A stretch of 31,626 nt of DNA from a virus: positions 1 to 31,626 of IMG/VR virus record IMGVR_UViG_3300017989_000306; one strand, given 5' to 3'. The position numbers and the translations under genes are program-made. The stretch's first letter is position 1, and each line of letters starts with the position of its first letter. Positions 14,190-31,625 of this stretch are shown piece after piece. The notes under the pieces were generated by a model. It ran no database searches, was not told the DNA's origin, and saw only the letters and a program-made list of their open reading frames with translations.

Positions 14190-14566
14190 CAGCCCGAAAT
14201 CCTTCCCAGGATCCCGCCGGTAGAACGCCGCTCGATGTCTGGGTCCTGCAGGGCGACCGTGTAAAATTCGATCGCTTCGGTGTTCTCCAGGGCCTCGAAT
14301 TTATGCCAGGCGCCGGCTGGGACCGCCGTCAACTCGCCGGCTGCGATCTCTGTTTGGTCCGGGATTTCCTGGGGTCCATGGGGCCCGTCCACCTCCCGCC
14401 ATATCGTGATCAGCAGGCGCCCGGAAATTACATAAAAAATATTGGATTTGAATTCATGCCGGTGTTCCGAACAAAACCCGCCGGCCTGTGCGCTGATATG
14501 GTGGGCCGAAACCGTCCGCGTCCGCAGGATTTCCTGCGTCAAACCCCAGATTTTACCTTGTTTCAA
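14189..14566 (-). CDS. Small cupin-domain protein
   Basis: A 125-residue single-domain cupin. Motif 1 is GFCSEHRHEFKSNIFYVISG with metal ligands His35 and His37. The usual glutamate position is Asn42. Motif 2, GELTAVPAGAWHKF, matches G-x5-P-x-G-x2-H exactly, with His88. The start is a TTG at 14566, preceded by GAGGAGG and overlapping the DUF115 stop as TTGA. It may be a sugar isomerase or epimerase such as mannose-6-phosphate isomerase type, or a sensor; the family is too broad to choose. Context within the glycan block favours a sugar-modifying role. Confidence 0.8.
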   Translation of the reverse strand: MKQGKIWGLTQEILRTRTVSAHHISAQAGGFCSEHRHEFKSNIFYVISGRLLITIWREVDGPHGPQEIPDQTEIAAGELTAVPAGAWHKFEALENTEAIEFYTVALQDPDIERRSTGGILGRISG

Positions 14567-15342
14567 TTAAGGACCTCCTCGGGTGATCTCTTCGGGAAAG
14601 CCTCGAGTCCGGAATCTGGATTCAGATTTATAACCGTAGTCTTTTTTTGCCGGCATGCCTGGGCCGCCGGCTCGAAAAATTTGGCGAATTTTACGGCCGT
14701 TTCTTCTTTTTGTTTCCTGGGGTGGCCGTCGTGAAAATGGGATCGGCCGTCTGAATGCTTGCAATCAAACCCCAGCAGATAAATCGGATTGGCGCCCAGG
14801 CAAACCGCCAGATTCAGGGCCCCATATCCGGAATTATTCCCATGGCCGATCCCCGCCCGGCTTGTCATGGGAAAGGCCCGCAGGCCGTCCTTATAATTCC
14901 GAAAAACCCGGACTATGAAAATTTCCGCCGGCAGTTTAACGGTATACGTGCAGAGCCAGACCTTGTATGAGGTTGACTGGTGGAATTTTTCCCGGGCGCC
15001 GGCCCCGTCTGGGATCCGTTCATATCGGCCTTGATATATGAAGTTTAAAAACCGGGTGTCCATTGAAAAAATAATCGTTGGGTCAAAAAATTCGAAGGCG
15101 CGATTTATTCCGATCGTCCGAAATCCTTTCAGCCGGGAAAAATCGAACCCCCGCAGGCTGGGACCGCCCCCTACTATGACGCAAGGCCGCCCCTCCCAGG
15201 CCCCGTCTGGCAGGACCTCGTATAAAAATCTATTGTCGAAACGATCGGATCGATAAAGAATTGGATCTCTCCGTGATAGCAAATCGTTTTCTGGCGCCGG
15301 CCGCTTCGGATCCGCGCCGGGAAGGCTGGTTTTTCTGTCCAT
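14563..15342 (-). CDS. DUF115 / sialyltransferase-like Rossmann protein
   Basis: A 259-residue protein with the motif CVIVGGGPSLRGFDFSRL (residues 54-71), then IGINRAFEFFDPTIIFSMD, and the late signature NPIYLLGFDCKHSDGRSHFHD. This pattern is shared by DUF115 (MptE-like) proteins and by CST-type bacterial sialyltransferases, both of which use the G-x-G-P-S-L loop for nucleotide binding. Members are frequent in phage genomes next to glycosyltransferases. The ATG overlaps the connector stop as TAATG, so this is the first cargo gene after the connector. A transferase or pyrophosphokinase-like role is possible; no acceptor can be deduced. Confidence 0.75.
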   Translation of the reverse strand: MDRKTSLPGADPKRPAPENDLLSRRDPILYRSDRFDNRFLYEVLPDGAWEGRPCVIVGGGPSLRGFDFSRLKGFRTIGINRAFEFFDPTIIFSMDTRFLNFIYQGRYERIPDGAGAREKFHQSTSYKVWLCTYTVKLPAEIFIVRVFRNYKDGLRAFPMTSRAGIGHGNNSGYGALNLAVCLGANPIYLLGFDCKHSDGRSHFHDGHPRKQKEETAVKFAKFFEPAAQACRQKKTTVINLNPDSGLEAFPKRSPEEVLN

Positions 15343-17169: not shown

Positions 17170-18291
17170 TTAACAGGCGTGTTCCAGGCAACGGAGGAAA
17201 ACCACCGCGTTTATATTCTCGATGGCCAGGTCGGCCCTCATGGAATAATAAACATAAGTGGCCTCGTCCGCCGCGACCCGCTGGCTTTCGATTTTGATGT
17301 CCCGCTGCAGACCGATGATCAGGTTCCCCCTCGGGGTCAGCAGGACGTCAGTATAATCGCCTTCCCCCAGCAGCCCGTCCTCGGTGTCCAGGGGCGATCC
17401 CAGGTTGGTCGGCATCAGGGGCACGTCCAGAATCCCGACCCGTCCATATTGGGGGGTGACTTTGCCGGTAAACACCGCATCGCCCAGGGCGGTCCCTCTC
17501 TCGGAAAGCGCCTCGAGATAGTCCTGTGTCACCAGGTCGGAATTCAAAAACTTCATGTTGGCCAGGCCGTTCCGGACCTTGTACTTGCTGGGCATGGCCT
17601 TGATCATTTTGTGGTACTTGCACTCCCAGCCGTAGGGGGCGCTGGTATGCTGTTCCATAATCTTTCCGGGAAGTTCGAACCAGGCGTCCGGGTCGTCGAC
17701 CCCGCTGGGGCAATCCGTCCCGCTTTCGCATTCGCAGGCGTTGAGGACCTTGGATCCGCCGGAAACGTCGTTGTAATAGGCCTGGCCGCTGGTCTGGCCA
17801 TAAACGATCTGATATCGCCATCCGTCCCACAGGCTCCGGATGTCGTCCGCGCCGAAGCCATTCAGGGAGTGGGTGTCCCCGATGTAAAATGCCTCTTCCA
17901 GCTCATTGGCGATCTTGCCGGCGACGATCCGCATCAGGTGATCGGCGAAAGCGTTCCCTTCCAGGTTGTCTTCCAGGTCGTCATCGTAGACAGCGATGCA
18001 TCCGCGGACCTTTTTGGTCGATAAAGTAATGGTGTTGTGGGCCCATTGTTTCTTGTACTTCGTCTCGTCGAAAGCGGTCGCCGGATACAGAAAGCGTCCG
18101 TTTCCGAATCCCAGCGCCCGGATCCGCTTTTCGGGTTTCCCCATGCGGATGATCCGGGCGTAGTCCTTCATGACGGACTCATCGACCATGTAATCCAGGA
18201 AGCGGTCGGCCTCTTCCGGATCCAGGTCTATCGTCGGCATCGAGATCAAGTTGAATTTGTTCATCTTGACCCGTTTTAAAAGATTTCGCAT
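17170..18291 (-). CDS. Major capsid protein, HK97-fold type
   Basis: A 373-residue protein directly after the scaffold gene, with an AAAGGAAA ribosome site before the ATG at 18291; an ATG at 18264 is a weaker alternative. It has the expected order of an HK97-fold capsid protein: a helical N-arm (EEADRFLDYMVDESVMKDYARI), an E-loop-like strand pair (GFGNGRFLYPATAFDETKYKKQ), a spine-helix region (FADHLMRIVAGKIANELEEAFYIGD), and a C-terminal A-domain strand set (GILDVPLMPTNLG, VLLTPRGNLIIGLQRDIKIE). An unusual cysteine-rich insertion (ACECESGTDCPSG) lies near residue 190. About 400 copies would form the shell in a T=7 head, but the T number is not shown here. Confidence 0.88.
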   Translation of the reverse strand: MRNLLKRVKMNKFNLISMPTIDLDPEEADRFLDYMVDESVMKDYARIIRMGKPEKRIRALGFGNGRFLYPATAFDETKYKKQWAHNTITLSTKKVRGCIAVYDDDLEDNLEGNAFADHLMRIVAGKIANELEEAFYIGDTHSLNGFGADDIRSLWDGWRYQIVYGQTSGQAYYNDVSGGSKVLNACECESGTDCPSGVDDPDAWFELPGKIMEQHTSAPYGWECKYHKMIKAMPSKYKVRNGLANMKFLNSDLVTQDYLEALSERGTALGDAVFTGKVTPQYGRVGILDVPLMPTNLGSPLDTEDGLLGEGDYTDVLLTPRGNLIIGLQRDIKIESQRVAADEATYVYYSMRADLAIENINAVVFLRCLEHAC

Positions 18292-18321: not shown

Positions 18322-19053
18322 TTATTCGTCCTCGGCGCCGGTAATCGACGGCCAGGCCGGGGTTTCGTCCTTTTTGACGTTGGCCTTTTTGTCGTCGTCG
18401 TCGCCATCCTTGGCCTGTTTCGATCCGCCTTTCTGCAGGTCCTTAATCTGCTTTTCCATCTTTTCGATTTTGTCCAGCAGGGCCTGTTTTTCGGCGTCGG
18501 CCTTGTTTTTCGCGGCTTCCCGTTTTTCGGTCCGCAGCCGGGCCAGCTCTTCCAGGTCGGCTTTCACGTCATCGGGTAGGCCGTCATGGCCCTTACTGAC
18601 GTTTTTCTCGGCGTCGGTGATCAGGTTCCCGATGATTTCGGCCGCCTTTTTAAGCTGGCTGATCGTTGCCTTGGAAAGCCGGGCGCCGGCCTTTTCGACG
18701 TCGGTCAGGATATCGACGACGTTTTCGGGATCGGCGTCCAGGGTGATCGGGTCGATAGTGGCCAGTTTGGCCAGGGTGGCGATGGCCGCCTCGTATTTCT
18801 CGGGCATGTCATCCCGATACTTTTCGATTTCGGCCATAGCCTCGGAAACGGAATCCGCCCGGGCCTGTTCCATTTTATTGACGGCTTCGACCTGGGCGTC
18901 GGTGATTTCTTCGTTCCCAAAAACTTTCTTCAAAAACTTGATAAGGTTGTCCATTGGATGTCCTCGCTTGATGATGAAAAATTTTTTTCGATTCGCAGCT
19001 CGATCGACCAGGCTGATCTCTGCAACATCGATGTCTTTCAATTTTCGCGCCAT
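18322..19053 (-). CDS. Capsid scaffolding protein with nested start
   Basis: A 243-residue protein just upstream of the capsid gene. Residues 8-30 (DIDVAEISLVDRAANRKKFF) match the conserved segment seen near the N-terminus of XkdF-type prohead protease/scaffold proteins. The rest is helical, with a long charged coiled coil (EELARLRTEKREAAKNKADA..., DKIEKMEKQIKDLQ) and an acidic/lysine C-terminus, as expected for scaffold. A second ATG at 18954 (MDNLIKFLKK) has its own GAGGA site and could make a shorter scaffold, similar in concept to nested scaffold genes in other phages. Transcription probably starts at the promoter-like sequence at 19227-19255, leaving a structured leader. Confidence 0.78.
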   Translation of the reverse strand: MARKLKDIDVAEISLVDRAANRKKFFIIKRGHPMDNLIKFLKKVFGNEEITDAQVEAVNKMEQARADSVSEAMAEIEKYRDDMPEKYEAAIATLAKLATIDPITLDADPENVVDILTDVEKAGARLSKATISQLKKAAEIIGNLITDAEKNVSKGHDGLPDDVKADLEELARLRTEKREAAKNKADAEKQALLDKIEKMEKQIKDLQKGGSKQAKDGDDDDKKANVKKDETPAWPSITGAEDE

Positions 19054-19070
19054 GAAAATCTCCCTTTCGT

Positions 19071-19210
19071 GATCCGGGTTTCATGGCTTGGTGAATCCCC
19101 GCTTGGTGGGGGCATTCCCGGCCGGTCCTGGTCCGGAATGCCAGAGCGGGGCGCCGGCTGCTGCCGGCCCTCTCTGCCTTCCGACCTGGCGATTTATCGA
19201 TCGCCGGATC
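19071..19210 (-). ncRNA. Candidate structured leader RNA of the capsid operon
   Basis: The 208-base gap between genes can form several perfect helices on the minus-strand transcript: an outer GATCCGG/CCGGATC (19204-19210 with 19071-19077); GGCGAT/ATCGCC (19188-19205) with a six-base loop; GCCGGC/GCCGGC (19153-19168) with a four-base loop; CCCCGCT/AGCGGGG (19145-19151 with 19097-19103) enclosing GGCATTCC/GGAATGCC (19135-19142 with 19111-19118). The set is mutually compatible as a multibranched fold, except that the outer helix and the GGCGAT helix share two bases. It lies between the promoter-like sequence and the scaffold start. It could be a leader control element, a processed small RNA or a packaging-type RNA. 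It does not match any RNA family I know. Confidence 0.55.
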
Positions 19211-19224
19211 TTAGGCGTCTGATT

Positions 19225-19250
19225 AAAAAATAAGCCGTCGGGCCCGGCTT
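19225..19250 (-). terminator. Rho-independent terminator after the 120-residue gene
   Basis: On the minus strand AAGCCG GGCCCGA CGGCTT, then ATTTTTT. The stem is six base pairs with a GC-rich loop and a good U tract, located directly after the stop at 19262. It would stop transcripts from the terminase-portal-protease genes. It is physically interleaved with the promoter-like hexamers described separately. Confidence 0.72.
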
Positions 19251-19255
19251 GTCAA
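19227..19255 (-). promoter_or_regulatory. Sigma70-like promoter before the scaffold-capsid operon
   Basis: On the minus strand a perfect TTGACA (19255-19250), a 17-base spacer and TATTTT (19232-19227). It is placed about 170 bases before the scaffold start, the only sizeable non-coding gap in the window. The spacer is the stem-loop of the terminator, so the two signals share bases. Strong separate transcription of scaffold and capsid would make sense. The host polymerase and start site are not verified. Confidence 0.6.
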
Positions 19256-19261
19256 ATATTT

Positions 19262-19624
19262 CTACATGCCAGGTTTTGGTAATTCGAATATTGGGGATGT
19301 GATTAATTCGTGTTCCTGGTGTTTTATCGATCGGATCCAATCGAAAAGCCGGCCCCAATCGGGGCCCGTAAGAAAGGAAATCAGGTCATATAGGCCGGCG
19401 GCTTGGATTTCCCGGCATCGATCTTTCCCGTCTGTGAATGCGACCGCCTTCCCGGACGCCATTCGAAAAACGATAATATTCCCGTTTTCAATTCCCAGGA
19501 TCTCGACCAGGTAAAGGTTAATCCGGATCCCATCGATCCAAACAATCCCGGGGTCTTTCGCTGGCTTCGCGGGGGTAGACTGCAGGTTCCCCGCCGGCGC
19601 CGCGTCGTTATTTTTTTTGTCCAT
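19262..19624 (-). CDS. Hypothetical 120-residue protein
   Basis: No family recognised. The N-terminal 25 residues are Ala/Pro/Lys-rich and probably disordered (KNNDAAPAGNLQSTPAKPAK). After that comes a compact alpha/beta segment (IVWIDGIRINLYLVEILGIE, then GNIIVFRMASGKAVAF and AGLYDLISFLTGPDW). It overlaps the end of sulfotransferase 2 by 17 bases and precedes the terminator/promoter gap, so it is probably the last gene of the upstream transcript. It carries one copy of a recurring DNA motif (19567-19583) also found in two other small genes. Confidence 0.65.
   Translation of the reverse strand: MDKKNNDAAPAGNLQSTPAKPAKDPGIVWIDGIRINLYLVEILGIENGNIIVFRMASGKAVAFTDGKDRCREIQAAGLYDLISFLTGPDWGRLFDWIRSIKHQEHELITSPIFELPKPGM
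19567..19583 (-). repeat. 17-base motif, copy 3 with one mismatch
   Basis: Minus-strand GCAGTCTACCCCCGCGA, one base different from the two perfect copies at 26337-26353 and 29686-29702. It encodes QSTPA in the 120-residue gene. Confidence 0.45.
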
Positions 19625-20261
19625 CGCTTTCCTTTCGCCCGGCGGTCTGGGCCTCCCCTGGTAAAAACTTCGGCCGCTCGATCATCCGGGCCAGGCTTGT
19701 CGGGACCGCGGCCTTTAAAAACTCGAAAACCGGCCGCAGGGCCTCGTCGACATCGGCCAGGATGTTTTCATACTTGACCTCGATGGCGTCGGCTGGGTGT
19801 TCCTTGATGTGCTGCCGGAATCGGGCGACCGTAAATTCCGCCGCCGGCTGATAGGCCGTCCAGGGAACGAACCCGCGGACGATGTCCCGGTCGGCGGCTT
19901 CATATGAACGCCAGGTTTCCCGGATCCCCCTGGTGACAAAAACTATTTTCGACCCCTTAAACGTCAGGGGTAGCCAGATCCATTCAAGCCCGCCGGCGCC
20001 GGGATTTATCGCCAGCTTGGCCCCGATCCATTTCCCAGGCCTTTTTTGTGCCGTGTAGTCCTGGAGGATTTTCTGGACATATCCCTGGGCCTTGAATCGG
20101 TCAAGGTGATTCATGCCGATGGCGTGAAATAACGGGTGCGGCTCAAATAGAACAGGGCCGATGTTCGGCGATGCGGCCAGCAGCCGCCGCAGGATCGACG
20201 TCCCAGATCTTCTCAATCCTATAATCCAAAAAAAACCCTCTCCGTCAAATTGTGATTGCAT
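19608..20261 (-). CDS. Sulfotransferase 2, divergent
   Basis: A 217-residue sulfotransferase-family protein. The 5'-phosphosulfate loop is IIGLRRSGTSILRRLL (residues 13-28), followed by an acidic/histidine segment (FEPHPLFHAIGMNH). The 3'-phosphate-binding region is KIVFVTRGIRETWRSYEA (105-122), in which the usual R-D-P is R-G-I, so it is more divergent than the other two. ATG at 20261 follows an AAAGGGAAGC ribosome site. A 16-base palindrome (20278-20293) lies immediately upstream. Inserted between a small basic protein gene and the 120-residue gene in the head module. Should use PAPS to sulfate a sugar or protein; target unknown. Confidence 0.78.
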   Translation of the reverse strand: MQSQFDGEGFFWIIGLRRSGTSILRRLLAASPNIGPVLFEPHPLFHAIGMNHLDRFKAQGYVQKILQDYTAQKRPGKWIGAKLAINPGAGGLEWIWLPLTFKGSKIVFVTRGIRETWRSYEAADRDIVRGFVPWTAYQPAAEFTVARFRQHIKEHPADAIEVKYENILADVDEALRPVFEFLKAAVPTSLARMIERPKFLPGEAQTAGRKESDGQKK

Positions 20262-20277
20262 GCTTCCCTTTCGTCTG

Positions 20278-20293
20278 CCGCCGTATACGGCGG
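20278..20293. repeat. Palindrome CCGCCGTATACGGCGG, copy 2
   Basis: A perfect 16-base palindrome in the 33-base gap between the small basic protein gene and sulfotransferase 2. It contains the same 14-base core as 11071-11084. Both copies follow the stop codon of a gene with a basic tail and come just before the ribosome site of a cargo gene. Confidence 0.6.
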
Positions 20294-20294
20294 T

Positions 20295-20543
20295 TTATGC
20301 TTTCGATGCGGCCGATGGGATGGCTTTCGGCCTCTTCGGCTTTCTGCGCCGGCGCCCCAGGGATTTGACCAGGTCGTCAATTATGACCTCCCGCCTGGCC
20401 GGCGATGCGTAAAAATCCCGCCAGAATTGCCGGCGCTGGGCCCGGGGCATATTTTTATCCGCCAGGGTTTTATTCAGGGCCCGCAGGATCCGGGCCGCCC
20501 GCGTGAAATCCCGCCGCAGCTTCCACCGTTTGAATTTGTTCAA
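20295..20543 (-). CDS. Small basic protein, unknown
   Basis: An 82-residue, strongly basic, helical protein (MNKFKRWKLRRDFTRAARIL, then SLGRRRRKPKRPKA). The start is a TTG at 20543 with GGAGG just upstream. It lies between the prohead protease gene and sulfotransferase 2. The arginine/lysine content suggests nucleic-acid or polyanion binding, possibly a head-internal protein. No family is recognised, and the TTG start lowers certainty. Confidence 0.55.
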   Translation of the reverse strand: MNKFKRWKLRRDFTRAARILRALNKTLADKNMPRAQRRQFWRDFYASPARREVIIDDLVKSLGRRRRKPKRPKAIPSAASKA

Positions 20544-20553
20544 CCTGCCTCCG

Positions 20554-22308
20554 TTATCCGACCGCCGCCGATCCCCCCATCGAAAATCCGGTCAGGTCCC
20601 CGGCCTTGATCGCTCCCCAGACTTTGTCCGAATTAATCTTGATCATTAGCCACCAGGCGCCGGCCTTGATTTTCTGGCCGCCTTTCTGGATGTCTTCGTC
20701 CGGCTGAAAACATTCAATTACCGGGAAATTGAAAGCCCGCCCTTTATGCATGACCTTTAATTTCCCCCCGCCGCTGGCGTATCTCTCCATGAATTTGACC
20801 AGGGCCTTGTCGATCTCTTCGGCGGTCGTGTAATCCCCTTGGGTATCCGTCGCCATCGGCTCATAAACAATTCCGCCGACCAGGCGCCGATCTTCGTCCG
20901 TTTTCAGGATCTTGAATTCGGCCTTTTTGAAATCATCCGTCCGGGCCGGCTCGACGTGGATCGGCTCGACGTGATTCTCTTCCGCCCAATCCCGGACCCG
21001 GCTTTCCGGCCAGGTGTCGGCTGGGAATCGCAGCTCGACCAGCCATTTGTCATCATATCCCGGCATCGAATACATATAATGCGGCGAGGCCCAGACCTCG
21101 ATTGCTTCGCCGGGCAGGTCGACCCGGCCGAATAACTTCCCAGCCTGGTCGCCGCTTCCGGCAAGGCGCCGCTCGTAATCAGTAAAGGTTTCCCAATGAT
21201 CCCGGATAAAAACCAGGGCGGTTTCTTTGGCCGCCTCGTCCGGTTCTGGCGCCGCCTGTTTTGCGACCTTGGCCGCCGGCTCGAAATTCTGATATTTGAC
21301 CTCGTTTTCTTTGAGCCAGGCCCTGGCCTCGGCCGCTGTCCATTTGTCCTTGGGGAATCGCAGGGCCTGGGGCTGGATTTTGCCGGCCTTCGTCTTTGCC
21401 CAGATGACGCCGATCGTCTTCGGGACGTCGACCCCCCAGACCTTCCCGCCTCGGGTCCGGCGGAAGATGTCAAACTGGTGGGGGTCCTGCAGCCGGGCGG
21501 AGTGTTCGCTGGGATAGGGCTTCCGGATCTCTGTCCGGACCTGGGCCCCCGGCTTGACGTCGTCGATCTTCCGGACCATGCATTCCGGGGCCCGGGCCTT
21601 CAAAAATTCCCCCCGGGCCTTTATCCGGTGTTTGTGGCAAACCGGAATGAATTCCCGCCCATCATTCCAAGTGTAGGCCCATCGGGCCGGGGCGTCGCAG
21701 TATTTGCATATATGCTCGACCTCGGGGTCGGCCTCCGGGCCGCGCTTCCCAATGTCGCCCCGCTTGGCCAGGATGATGTCAAATATCGGCATGTGATCGC
21801 CGGCCGGCGCCGCGTCGGAAAATTCCAACATGACGGCTTTCCCCGTTTCCCCCTCGATCGCTTTCTCGATCCAGGCGGCGACCTCTCCGGTCCGTAGTCC
21901 CTCTGGGACGTTGGCGCTTACCATGACGACCTCGGCCGCGGCTGCGGATTTCAAAAAATCCCCGGTAATCGAAACCGCGCCGTCGGTGATCTTGTAATCC
22001 TCGAGTGCCGCCGGATCGATCCCGCGCAGGGCCTTTTTGAATGCCTCCCTGTCCAGGCTCGTTTCTTTCATCCGGACGCCGCGCCCCCGGATCTCTTTGA
22101 CCAGGATGGCGTATTTCCGAAAAAAATCCCGCCGGGTCAATTCCGTTTCTTCCCCCATCGCCTTGATGACGGCGACGGAATCCTGGGACCCTTCGAAATA
22201 TTTCCGATACATGCAAATAAACCGATAGCGGATATCCTTCAATTCGCTGTCGGTCGATTTCTCGACGGCCTCCCGCAGGGCCTGGACCGTCACGTCCTCG
22301 ATCATCAT
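20554..22308 (-). CDS. XkdF-type prohead protease with long N-terminal extension
   Basis: A 584-residue protein. I chose the ATG at 22308 (MMIEDVTVQ), which has GGAGGAG eight bases upstream. The C-terminal 120 residues look like the Peptidase_S78_2/XkdF domain: FKILKTDEDRRLVGGIVYEP (465-484), KLKVMHKGRAFNFPVIE with the likely catalytic His521, and AGDLTGFSMGG (569-579) with a likely nucleophile Ser577. The N-terminal 450 residues are unusual. They include a helical start, a zinc-finger-like Cys201/Cys204/Cys224/His227 motif, and two similar modules ending LRFPKDKWTAAEARAWLKEN (316-335) and LRFPADTWPESRVRDWAEEN (426-445). The protease would mature the procapsid. The extension may act as a scaffold or bind other head proteins. 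Confidence 0.78.
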   Translation of the reverse strand: MMIEDVTVQALREAVEKSTDSELKDIRYRFICMYRKYFEGSQDSVAVIKAMGEETELTRRDFFRKYAILVKEIRGRGVRMKETSLDREAFKKALRGIDPAALEDYKITDGAVSITGDFLKSAAAAEVVMVSANVPEGLRTGEVAAWIEKAIEGETGKAVMLEFSDAAPAGDHMPIFDIILAKRGDIGKRGPEADPEVEHICKYCDAPARWAYTWNDGREFIPVCHKHRIKARGEFLKARAPECMVRKIDDVKPGAQVRTEIRKPYPSEHSARLQDPHQFDIFRRTRGGKVWGVDVPKTIGVIWAKTKAGKIQPQALRFPKDKWTAAEARAWLKENEVKYQNFEPAAKVAKQAAPEPDEAAKETALVFIRDHWETFTDYERRLAGSGDQAGKLFGRVDLPGEAIEVWASPHYMYSMPGYDDKWLVELRFPADTWPESRVRDWAEENHVEPIHVEPARTDDFKKAEFKILKTDEDRRLVGGIVYEPMATDTQGDYTTAEEIDKALVKFMERYASGGGKLKVMHKGRAFNFPVIECFQPDEDIQKGGQKIKAGAWWLMIKINSDKVWGAIKAGDLTGFSMGGSAAVG

Positions 22309-22339
22309 TTTTTTGTTCTCCTCCGCTTCGCCTCCTCGA

Positions 22340-22912
22340 TTATTTTGTCGGCCGCATCCAGAAAATTTGATTTTCCGGCTGCAGACCCCCCTCGTCCGGC
22401 TCTGTCCAGATGTCAACCCGGACCCGACCGTCCGTCTTCCTCAAAAATCGCAAAACGCATAATTCCCCGATCGAAACCGGCTTGATGGCGCCGGCTGGCT
22501 CTCCAGTATATCCGCCGGCTGTAACTTCCCCCGGGCTGGCTTCATTCGCGCCGACCCCAGCCCATGCCGCAGTTTCCTTCCCCCTCTGCGCCCGGATGAA
22601 ATCCAGGGCCTCTGTGTCATATGTGATCTTGACGGAAAATGTCTTGACGGGGCGCCCGCTGCCGGCCCGGGCGAATAAGGCGATGGAAAATTCCGCGCCG
22701 TCCTGGTTCCTGGGGCCCTCCGCCCAGATCGTCCCAGGCTCGTTGGCCTGATATCTGACCAGGACCTGACGGGTCCGGTTTATTTGCCGGCTGATTTTCT
22801 CGATGGTAGAAACCGGCTCCGCCTGGCCGCCCCCAATCCTGACCGCCAGCATGGCCGCGACCGAAACGGTCGCCAGCGCCAACAAAAAATAATTAGGTGG
22901 TTTTGCGCTCAT
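22340..22912 (-). CDS. Membrane-anchored or secreted protein, cohesin-like fold possible
   Basis: A 190-residue protein with an N-terminal hydrophobic segment (NYFLLALATVSVAAMLAVRI, residues 7-26) that acts as a signal or anchor. The following domain (KTFSVKITYDTEALDFIRAQ, then GGYTGEPAGAIKPVSIGELC and VLRFLRKTDGRVRVDI) has the order of strands and the typical phrases of cohesin-like beta sandwiches. Such a protein would be outside the cytoplasm, which is odd for a gene between the MuF and protease genes. The start overlaps the zinc-ribbon gene by 20 bases and has GAGGGG nearby. The cohesin call is tentative. Confidence 0.6.
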   Translation of the reverse strand: MSAKPPNYFLLALATVSVAAMLAVRIGGGQAEPVSTIEKISRQINRTRQVLVRYQANEPGTIWAEGPRNQDGAEFSIALFARAGSGRPVKTFSVKITYDTEALDFIRAQRGKETAAWAGVGANEASPGEVTAGGYTGEPAGAIKPVSIGELCVLRFLRKTDGRVRVDIWTEPDEGGLQPENQIFWMRPTK

Positions 22913-30428: not shown

Positions 30429-30930
30429 TCCATTTTGTCCATTTTGGCCCCCATCCGATCATCAGCTCCTCAATTCGAAAAATCGCCACCCCCTGGGGGG
30501 CGTCCCTCCGCCAGATTTTAATCCGCATGTCCCCATCTTCGGGCTGGCCGAAATATTCGCCATGCAGCCATTCCATGCGCCGGCCGATAAAAACGCCCAA
30601 GCTTGGAAGTGATGGCCGAAACCGGCGGACCTCAAGGCTAAAATACCATCCGGCCGCCCCTTCAATAAGCGCCCCGGTGGGAAACCTGATCGTCGCCGTC
30701 GCTTCCGCCGTCGCCAGCTGCGCCTGGACCCGGATGTAATCATATCCGGACCAGGGCATTTTCCCCGGCCCCAGATCCTGGAATGGCTCGAAACGCGCCG
30801 GCGATCTGTCGGGGTCAAGGCTGGTGTTCTGGATTCGGATTTCTGTCGGCCCGCTATATCTCGCTATTTGCTCAACGGATAAAATCGGGGTCGCCTTTAG
30901 ACGGTCAATAATGGCCGGCCTTTTGTTCAT
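30421..30930 (-). CDS. Hypothetical 169-residue protein, beta-rich
   Basis: Starts at the ATG at 30930, which overlaps the PAPS reductase-family stop as ATGA and follows an AGGGGGTG site. The composition and alternating pattern (GYDYIRVQAQLATAEATATI, WYFSLEVRRF) suggest a beta-rich fold. Its first seven residues, MNKRPAI, and the underlying DNA are nearly the same as the start of the upstream gene (16-base direct repeat). No family recognised. Confidence 0.65.
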   Translation of the reverse strand: MNKRPAIIDRLKATPILSVEQIARYSGPTEIRIQNTSLDPDRSPARFEPFQDLGPGKMPWSGYDYIRVQAQLATAEATATIRFPTGALIEGAAGWYFSLEVRRFRPSLPSLGVFIGRRMEWLHGEYFGQPEDGDMRIKIWRRDAPQGVAIFRIEELMIGWGPKWTKWNE

Positions 30931-30931
30931 A
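30916..30931 (-). repeat. 16-base direct repeat over start codon, copy A
   Basis: Minus-strand TATGAACAAAAGGCCG, covering the start of the 169-residue gene. Identical to 31611-31626, 695 bases away, which covers the start of the PAPS reductase-family gene. The pair exactly brackets that gene. Confidence 0.7.
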
Positions 30932-31625
30932 GCACCCCCTGTAAATGCAGATCGCCAACATAGTCAGAGACGCGGCATCCGTCAATAAAGGTAAAATTTT
31001 GATTTTCCTCATTGTCAGTTGCCGCCGTAATTTCAAGATCAACGGCAATCTGAAATAACTCTGGGTATCGACGCCTCAACTCTACCCATTCAGACCTCTT
31101 CTGCATCGAGCAAATATAACATCCGCTCTTCTGTGGCACCCTTAAACCCGCCTCCCGTATAACCCGACGGCAATCATTCCGCGTCATCTCCATCTCTACA
31201 ATCGGATACCGATACCCCTTGCGAGGCTTCGCCCTGTGGAATTCATCGGAAGAAATCCCGATCCATTGCTCATCAACCCCCATAGCACGAGCGAATCTTA
31301 CTAATGGGACGCGCTTCCAATAACCCGTACACCATCTACTGCGATAACTCGGGATATACCCCTTCTCCCGGCAATGCTCCAGCAAAGTTTTCCCCGCCGG
31401 GCTAAACTTCCCGCCGGTTAAATATATCAACCCAGGATAACCCCGCCTCTTTAACTCCCCCTCAATATAATCGATGTATTCGTATGTCCCCGGCCATTCG
31501 ACGCCCGTGTCAGAGAAAACGACATAATCCGGCGCTGGAAGCCTTCCGAGGAAAACAAGGGCGAGGAGTGCGGTTGAGTTGACGCCAGCACCGTAAGAAA
31601 GAGATATCGTCGGCCTTTTGTTCAT
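30927..31625 (-). CDS. PAPS reductase / ATP pyrophosphatase family protein
   Basis: A 232-residue protein with the PP-loop SYGAGVNSTALL (residues 10-21), the early FSDTGVEWPGTYEYI typical of this superfamily, Cys99 in RWCTGYWKR, and Cys169/Cys172 in SGCYICSMQKRSEW. This is a common phage branch of the phosphoadenosine phosphosulfate reductase family. True PAPS reduction is not assured; relatives act in tRNA, DNA or sulfur-related modification. By eye its DNA is AT-richer than its neighbours, and the gene is bracketed by a 16-base direct repeat, suggesting recent acquisition. The start codon lies at the right window edge, so its upstream signal is not visible. Confidence 0.8.
   Translation of the reverse strand: MNKRPTISLSYGAGVNSTALLALVFLGRLPAPDYVVFSDTGVEWPGTYEYIDYIEGELKRRGYPGLIYLTGGKFSPAGKTLLEHCREKGYIPSYRSRWCTGYWKRVPLVRFARAMGVDEQWIGISSDEFHRAKPRKGYRYPIVEMEMTRNDCRRVIREAGLRVPQKSGCYICSMQKRSEWVELRRRYPELFQIAVDLEITAATDNEENQNFTFIDGCRVSDYVGDLHLQGVL

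Follow-up and report, generated by a model that had tools for sequence, protein, structure and literature searches.

A probable RNA switch with competing, coevolving helices in the leader of a phage head operon

Control of the late structural genes of tailed phages is usually ascribed to promoters and protein antiterminators. In the lambda pR'-tR' (Q) and Xp10 P7 systems, a late promoter is followed by a short leader and a promoter-proximal intrinsic terminator that has to be passed for the late genes (PMC7171158, PMC6624301). The put RNA of phage HK022, described for early genes, is a promoter-proximal structured nascent RNA that acts directly on polymerase (PMC9378689). Here, we describe a phage leader that likewise combines a late promoter with a short leader, carries an apparent promoter-proximal intrinsic terminator in some relatives and resembles put as a promoter-proximal structured nascent RNA. 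It differs from the lambda and Xp10 systems in its covarying alternative RNA folds, and from put in that it heads late operons; for HK022 put, we know of neither a built-in terminator nor folds that compete and coevolve. Two other kinds of leader offer a comparison, namely trp-type attenuators, and riboswitch or protein-responsive leaders with a P1 antiterminator.

The DNA analysed in this study (the window, 31.6 kb) is a phage contig from a virus record with its genes on the minus strand. These are arranged in the order terminase (PF04466), portal (PF04860), MuF-like head protein and a protein with a C-terminal XkdF-type protease (PF14550), followed by two inserted genes and then by the scaffold and capsid genes. 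About 200 nt separate the inserted 120-aa gene from the scaffold ATG (19053). In agreement with the initial annotation, this is the sole long gene-free gap seen nearby on the minus strand: the 292-nt interval at 20262-20553 holds an 82-aa ORF with GGAGG before its TTG.

Several other features of this region were observed. The XkdF-type protease-scaffold gene seems to be split and reordered in the window (18322-19053 and 20554-22416), such that the scaffold gene begins with its N-terminal motif of ~33 aa, EISLVDRAANRKKFFIIK, and the upstream 620-aa protein ends in the protease domain; family phrog_3017 matches both of these parts, and in the cultured relative Drs3 one single XkdF gene precedes the capsid gene. 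Near codon 34, the scaffold gene has a second in-frame ATG (~18954 in the window), preceded by AAGGAGA in many relatives, which would point to a shorter scaffold made from an internal start. One of the two genes between protease and promoter (19262-20261) has a partial sulfotransferase match and the other is unknown; relatives have different inserts, of up to 4 kb, in this interval, which therefore resembles a cargo-gene hot spot. The window also encodes a protein (14563-15342) with a match to a phage family carrying a sialyltransferase annotation and, at the contig end, a partial PAPS reductase domain (30927-31625). Together with the sulfotransferase-like gene, these give a hint of sulfur or glycan modification.

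The promoter upstream of the scaffold gene (Table 1) was the best match within the 8-kb stretch scanned and, of all minus-strand matches in the window that contain a complete TTGACA, it scored highest. Transcription would start near 19220 on the minus strand. The promoter is conserved, and its distance to the scaffold gene is about equal in most relatives.

Table 1. Coordinates of the leader, its parts and the genes behind it in the window
Feature	Position	Strand	Remark
Major capsid gene (XkdG-like)	17170..18291	-	behind the scaffold-type gene
Scaffold-type gene, led by the RNA element	18322..19053	-	N-terminal ~33 aa match the start of phrog_3017, an XkdF-type protease family
Leader RNA, ~167 nt	19054..19220	-	putative start site to the base preceding the scaffold ATG
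Conserved RNA element	19088..19194	-	full-length match to covariance model R2
Segment 4, GGGGAUUCACC	19090..19100	-	pairs with segment 3; CCCC:GGGG here, CUCC:GGAG in L026
Segment 3, GGCCGGGAAUGCCCC	19109..19123	-	pairs with segment 2 or 4; no U-run after it in the window
Segment 2, GGCAUUCCGGACC	19130..19142	-	pairs with segment 1 or 3
Hairpin-bearing stretch inside the 1:2 helix	19143..19171	-	predicted fold; sequence variable in relatives
Segment 1, GGUCGGAAGGCAGAG	19172..19186	-	pairs with segment 2
Extra 5' hairpin	19183..19210	-	not seen at this position in aligned relatives
Sigma-70-type promoter TTGACA-17-TATTTT	19227..19255	-	-35 at 19255-19250, -10 at 19232-19227

The minus strand of 19071-19210 folds at -67.2 kcal/mol, compared with -52.8 +/- 3.8 kcal/mol in dinucleotide shuffles (z -3.8, 1/200 as good). 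The perfect helices that the initial annotation had reported for this stretch are present as inverted repeats (19111-19123/19130-19142, 19183-19193/19200-19210 and 19050-19057/19079-19086), and the repeated sequence it had pointed out is also real, with two copies of GCTTGGTG (CACCAAGC on the minus strand) at 19086 and 19101; the nearest relative (L026) lacks this repeat. The plus strand folds unusually well too (z -3.45), so that folding energy alone cannot choose between the strands, a choice made instead by the G.U and A.C counts in relatives (see below). The leader contains four segments with three possible pairings (1:2, 2:3 and 3:4), any of which excludes its neighbour. Thus, the helices first described as nested or side by side do exist, and what that description missed is their mutual exclusivity, which is the main result here. 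When the window or L026 was tested on its own for a chain of competing helices, significance was not reached (8/60 shuffles as good for the window). The evidence from the window by itself is limited to folding energy, and the proof of competing helices is comparative.

Searches with the capsid protein yielded more than 200 loci, and the capsid clade holding the window comprises 50 rows with support of 100/100. In most members of this clade, the promoter is retained and a leader of ~105-180 nt precedes the scaffold gene; the leader remains next to that gene even where inserted genes have opened a gap of 0.2 to 4 kb between protease and promoter, as in the window. A natural contrast is offered by the sister clade, 21 phages of which are leaderless and have abutting protease and scaffold genes (gaps of 3 to ~50 nt); searches of the whole records of such phages gave nothing above background (E below 0.01). 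Cultured phages with a close capsid were not found, the listed cultured relatives being ~30% identical or less, and in Drs3 the capsid gene directly follows the protease gene without a leader. Phage records searched at the nucleotide level gave no match to the region, and the scaffold protein as query returned identical contigs only.

The nearest relative, L026, has 73% capsid identity and flanks nearly identical to those of the window. A 3-nt block has changed jointly in segments 1, 2 and 3 between the two (CGG/CCG/CGG in the window vs AUA/UAU/UAU in L026), and their helices 3:4 (Table 1) differ by a U-A to C-G exchange. Some local variation was also seen among the leaders, including a short hairpin (GGUCU...AGACC) between the Shine-Dalgarno sequence and the scaffold start codon in L027-L034, and a 31-nt duplication within the 2:3 region of L059 relative to L060 and L056. 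Six leaders (L007, L008, L078-L080 and L084) are shorter (~105-111 nt), with the same promoter and a different fold, and are matched unconvincingly by our models.

The four segments were seen in a plain MAFFT alignment of 25 leaders. In an alignment fitted to no structure, helix 2:3 (16 pairs) is 89.5% paired and shows 38 double-sided changes, compared with 14.7 in shuffles; in the fitted alignment of 34 relatives, the counts are 50 and 20.6. Helix 1:2 (14 pairs) is 84% paired in the 25-leader alignment, with 52 double-sided changes against 21 in shuffles, and when 34 leaders were aligned with fitting to 2:3 only, it showed 77 against 25.3 +/- 5.1, with 14/14 pairs affected. The compensatory changes looked for across relatives are hence present for both helices. 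For helix 3:4 (80% paired in 34 leaders), support from column covariation is weak, with 25 double-sided cells against 15 and a number of affected pairs not above shuffles. An analogous 1:4 helix showed no coevolution in the alignment test.

All three helices were recovered when segments were swapped among 23 leaders, with segment limits set by hand on the alignment: own segments paired better than swapped ones for 1:2 (z -8.2), 2:3 (z -9.9) and 3:4 (z -5.0), whereas the control pairings 1:3, 1:4 and 2:4 did not (z -0.6, +1.0 and -1.1, respectively). The control pairings have the same ancestry and composition as the pairs under test, so the result is not explained by relatedness alone. Most columns of segment 2 hold differing bases with both partners matched, and 347/476 cells keep both pairs. 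In addition, the relatives contain 219 G.U cells and only 42 A.C cells, which places selection on the transcript (minus) strand. From these comparisons, we conclude with high confidence that a conserved structure with three competing helices is real, and they point to selection maintaining mutually exclusive helices, as would be expected of an attenuator. The functional structured leader of a scaffold-capsid transcript, as initially proposed, is thus supported by promoter, conservation and covariation.

Two covariance models were used to locate the element. Model R2 (1:2 plus 3:4), built from 34 relatives with the window left out, found a sole match in the 31.6-kb window, the minus-strand element of Table 1, with 21.7 bits and E 8.9e-4, E-values of these models being rough. 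With default settings, model R1, which contains only 2:3, did not detect the window; a run directed at it scored 9.2 bits. When Rfam was searched, no family reached its gathering threshold in the window, in 13 loci of relatives or in 10 outgroup and tail-copy loci. The Mu-gpT-DE RNA (RF03012), by its name another phage-capsid-gene-associated RNA, scored 12.5 bits in the window against a gathering score of 49, and the match covered the ribosome-binding region only. A scan of 291 genomes from the class of a Desulfobacterales host matched only the genome already known, and the element was not found in the 290 others.

Folding of growing prefixes predicted the same order of helices in the window, L035 and L015, namely 1:2, then 2:3, then 1:2 together with 3:4; in L098 the predicted path led from 2:3 to 3:4. 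A U-run directly follows segment 3 in 11/34 leaders, compared with 5/3537 positions elsewhere in the same leaders. Members with this U-run favour 2:3 over 1:2 by 14-20 kcal/mol and the others by -9 to +12 kcal/mol without overlap, a contrast that does not come from independent cases, the U-run members being mutually related. In several of them (L054, L056 and L064), 2:3 is still favoured in the predicted fold of the full-length leader, implying that segment 4 leaves their equilibrium fold as it was. Most outgroup leaders combine 2:3 with a U-run, and seven of them (L085, L086, L090, L137, L151, L153 and L157) have a long 2:3 hairpin followed by U5-U9. In these forms, 2:3 looks like an intrinsic terminator and 1:2 like its antiterminator. 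The window has no U-run after segment 3, so termination by 2:3 cannot be its mode; it is a terminator-less variant, in which the U-run was lost or never present.

Whole-record searches revealed a second, weaker copy of the element in three phages (G004, G007 and G008), scoring 23-30 bits with R1 and 33-42 bits with R2. Each second copy follows its own TTGACA promoter and directly precedes a gene of 131-133 aa that starts the tail genes, which is of the Neck1 type (phrog_5) in the copy scanned. Thus, the element is not tied to capsid genes. The leader for capsid dosage suggested in the initial annotation holds as a structured leader, and its capsid-only role is weakened by the same leader type before the neck/tail operon of these relatives. 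No second leader was found before the tail operon of the window, where the stretch preceding the neck gene is coding, and other phages likewise have coding sequence at the neck-gene position.

With trp-type attenuators, the leader shares four segments, exclusive pairings between neighbours and, in U-run relatives, a choice of terminator or antiterminator. It differs in that the U-run follows 2:3 and not 3:4 (the window having no terminator), in that it belongs to a phage late operon and not to biosynthesis, and in that there is no room between start site and segment 1 for a leader peptide overlapping that segment, the distance being ~34 nt in the window and still shorter, at 1 to 19 nt, in ten relatives. 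As in riboswitch or protein-responsive leaders with a P1 antiterminator, helix 1:2 has a domain inside it and is the competitor of a terminator hairpin; here, however, no conserved ligand pocket was recognised, the inner part is variable and Rfam gave no match.

Several other explanations were considered. Unassembled scaffold or capsid protein might bind the leader as an operator and lower its own synthesis, as the unassembled scaffold of P22 reportedly does according to an old report, and the persistence of the leader beside the scaffold gene across insertions of 0.2 to 4 kb would fit such autoregulation. We regard it as unlikely, because the element also leads the neck/tail operon in three phages, three exclusive helices exceed what an operator needs and the N-terminal scaffold motif is found in leaderless phages too. 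A put-like RNA that acts on RNA polymerase for processive antitermination through the long late operon would account for a promoter-proximal structured RNA heading long late operons, twice in three phages, and the final fold (1:2 plus 3:4) does consist of two tandem hairpins, put being a nascent RNA acting on polymerase (PMC9378689). Such an RNA should retain its contact bases, whereas the hairpin sequences vary widely; the conserved 2:3 helix with its own covariation and the terminators inside the element would also be left unexplained, and this reading ranks just behind autoregulation as an improbable one.

Production of a trans-acting small RNA, by a stop after segment 3 and with the operon read by leak-through, is suggested by the strong promoter and by the strong hairpin with U-run in some relatives. 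Segment 4, which lies past the terminator, nevertheless coevolves with segment 3, the element always precedes an operon and the window has no terminator, so that the processed small RNA of the initial annotation would be possible in terminator-bearing relatives only, and we think this quite improbable as a general account. The good fold of the plus strand could point to a DNA-level element, such as a packaging or replication site or a cruciform, or the structure could be a mere stabilising 5' hairpin. Given the excess of G.U over A.C cells and the fixed upstream position of the promoter, and since a stabiliser does not need exclusive helices, these options appear very unlikely; nothing points to the packaging-related RNA that had also been suggested. 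Least credible to us is that a single protein-binding hairpin is present twice, as 1:2 and as 3:4, with 2:3 as a by-product of their similarity. Segments 1 and 3 are indeed alike, as are 2 and 4, but 1:4 should then match as well as 2:3. It lacks coevolution (z +1.0), 2:3 has the best support of all the helices, and the reading is largely refuted by this control. DNA duplication or tandem operators were rejected by the same 1:4 control.

We consider it reasonably likely that the leader is a cis-acting, co-transcriptional, attenuator-type RNA switch of the head operon. Segments 1 and 2 would pair first in a transcript from the leader's own promoter; segment 3, once it emerges, would capture segment 2, and segment 4 could then retake segment 3 and restore 1:2. 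In U-run relatives, 2:3 would terminate and 1:2 antiterminate, such that anything favouring 1:2 would open the operon. In the window, where 1:2 and 2:3 are predicted to be about equally strong and 3:4 strong, our best guess is that a transient 2:3 hairpin pauses transcription or times folding rather than stopping transcription. In the cell, the helices would form in this order and read-through would be regulated, and a late phage or host factor might set the balance. We have moderate confidence in such regulation of the late operon by alternative folding. A more tentative proposal, which we regard as possible yet doubtful, is an undescribed family of phage RNA switches of late structural operons, working by sequential strand exchange (1:2, 2:3, then 1:2 plus 3:4), with terminator and terminator-less forms, at head and tail operons that answer to a common late signal.

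Judging from sequence comparison, an RNA switch absent from current listings probably controls the timing or amount of phage head protein. The leader is a compact element that is testable in a reporter without phage growth. If true, the head operon would have an extra layer of control in the form of a conserved RNA switch, which in some phages has also been copied to the tail operon; this could help explain how the supply of scaffold and capsid is matched.
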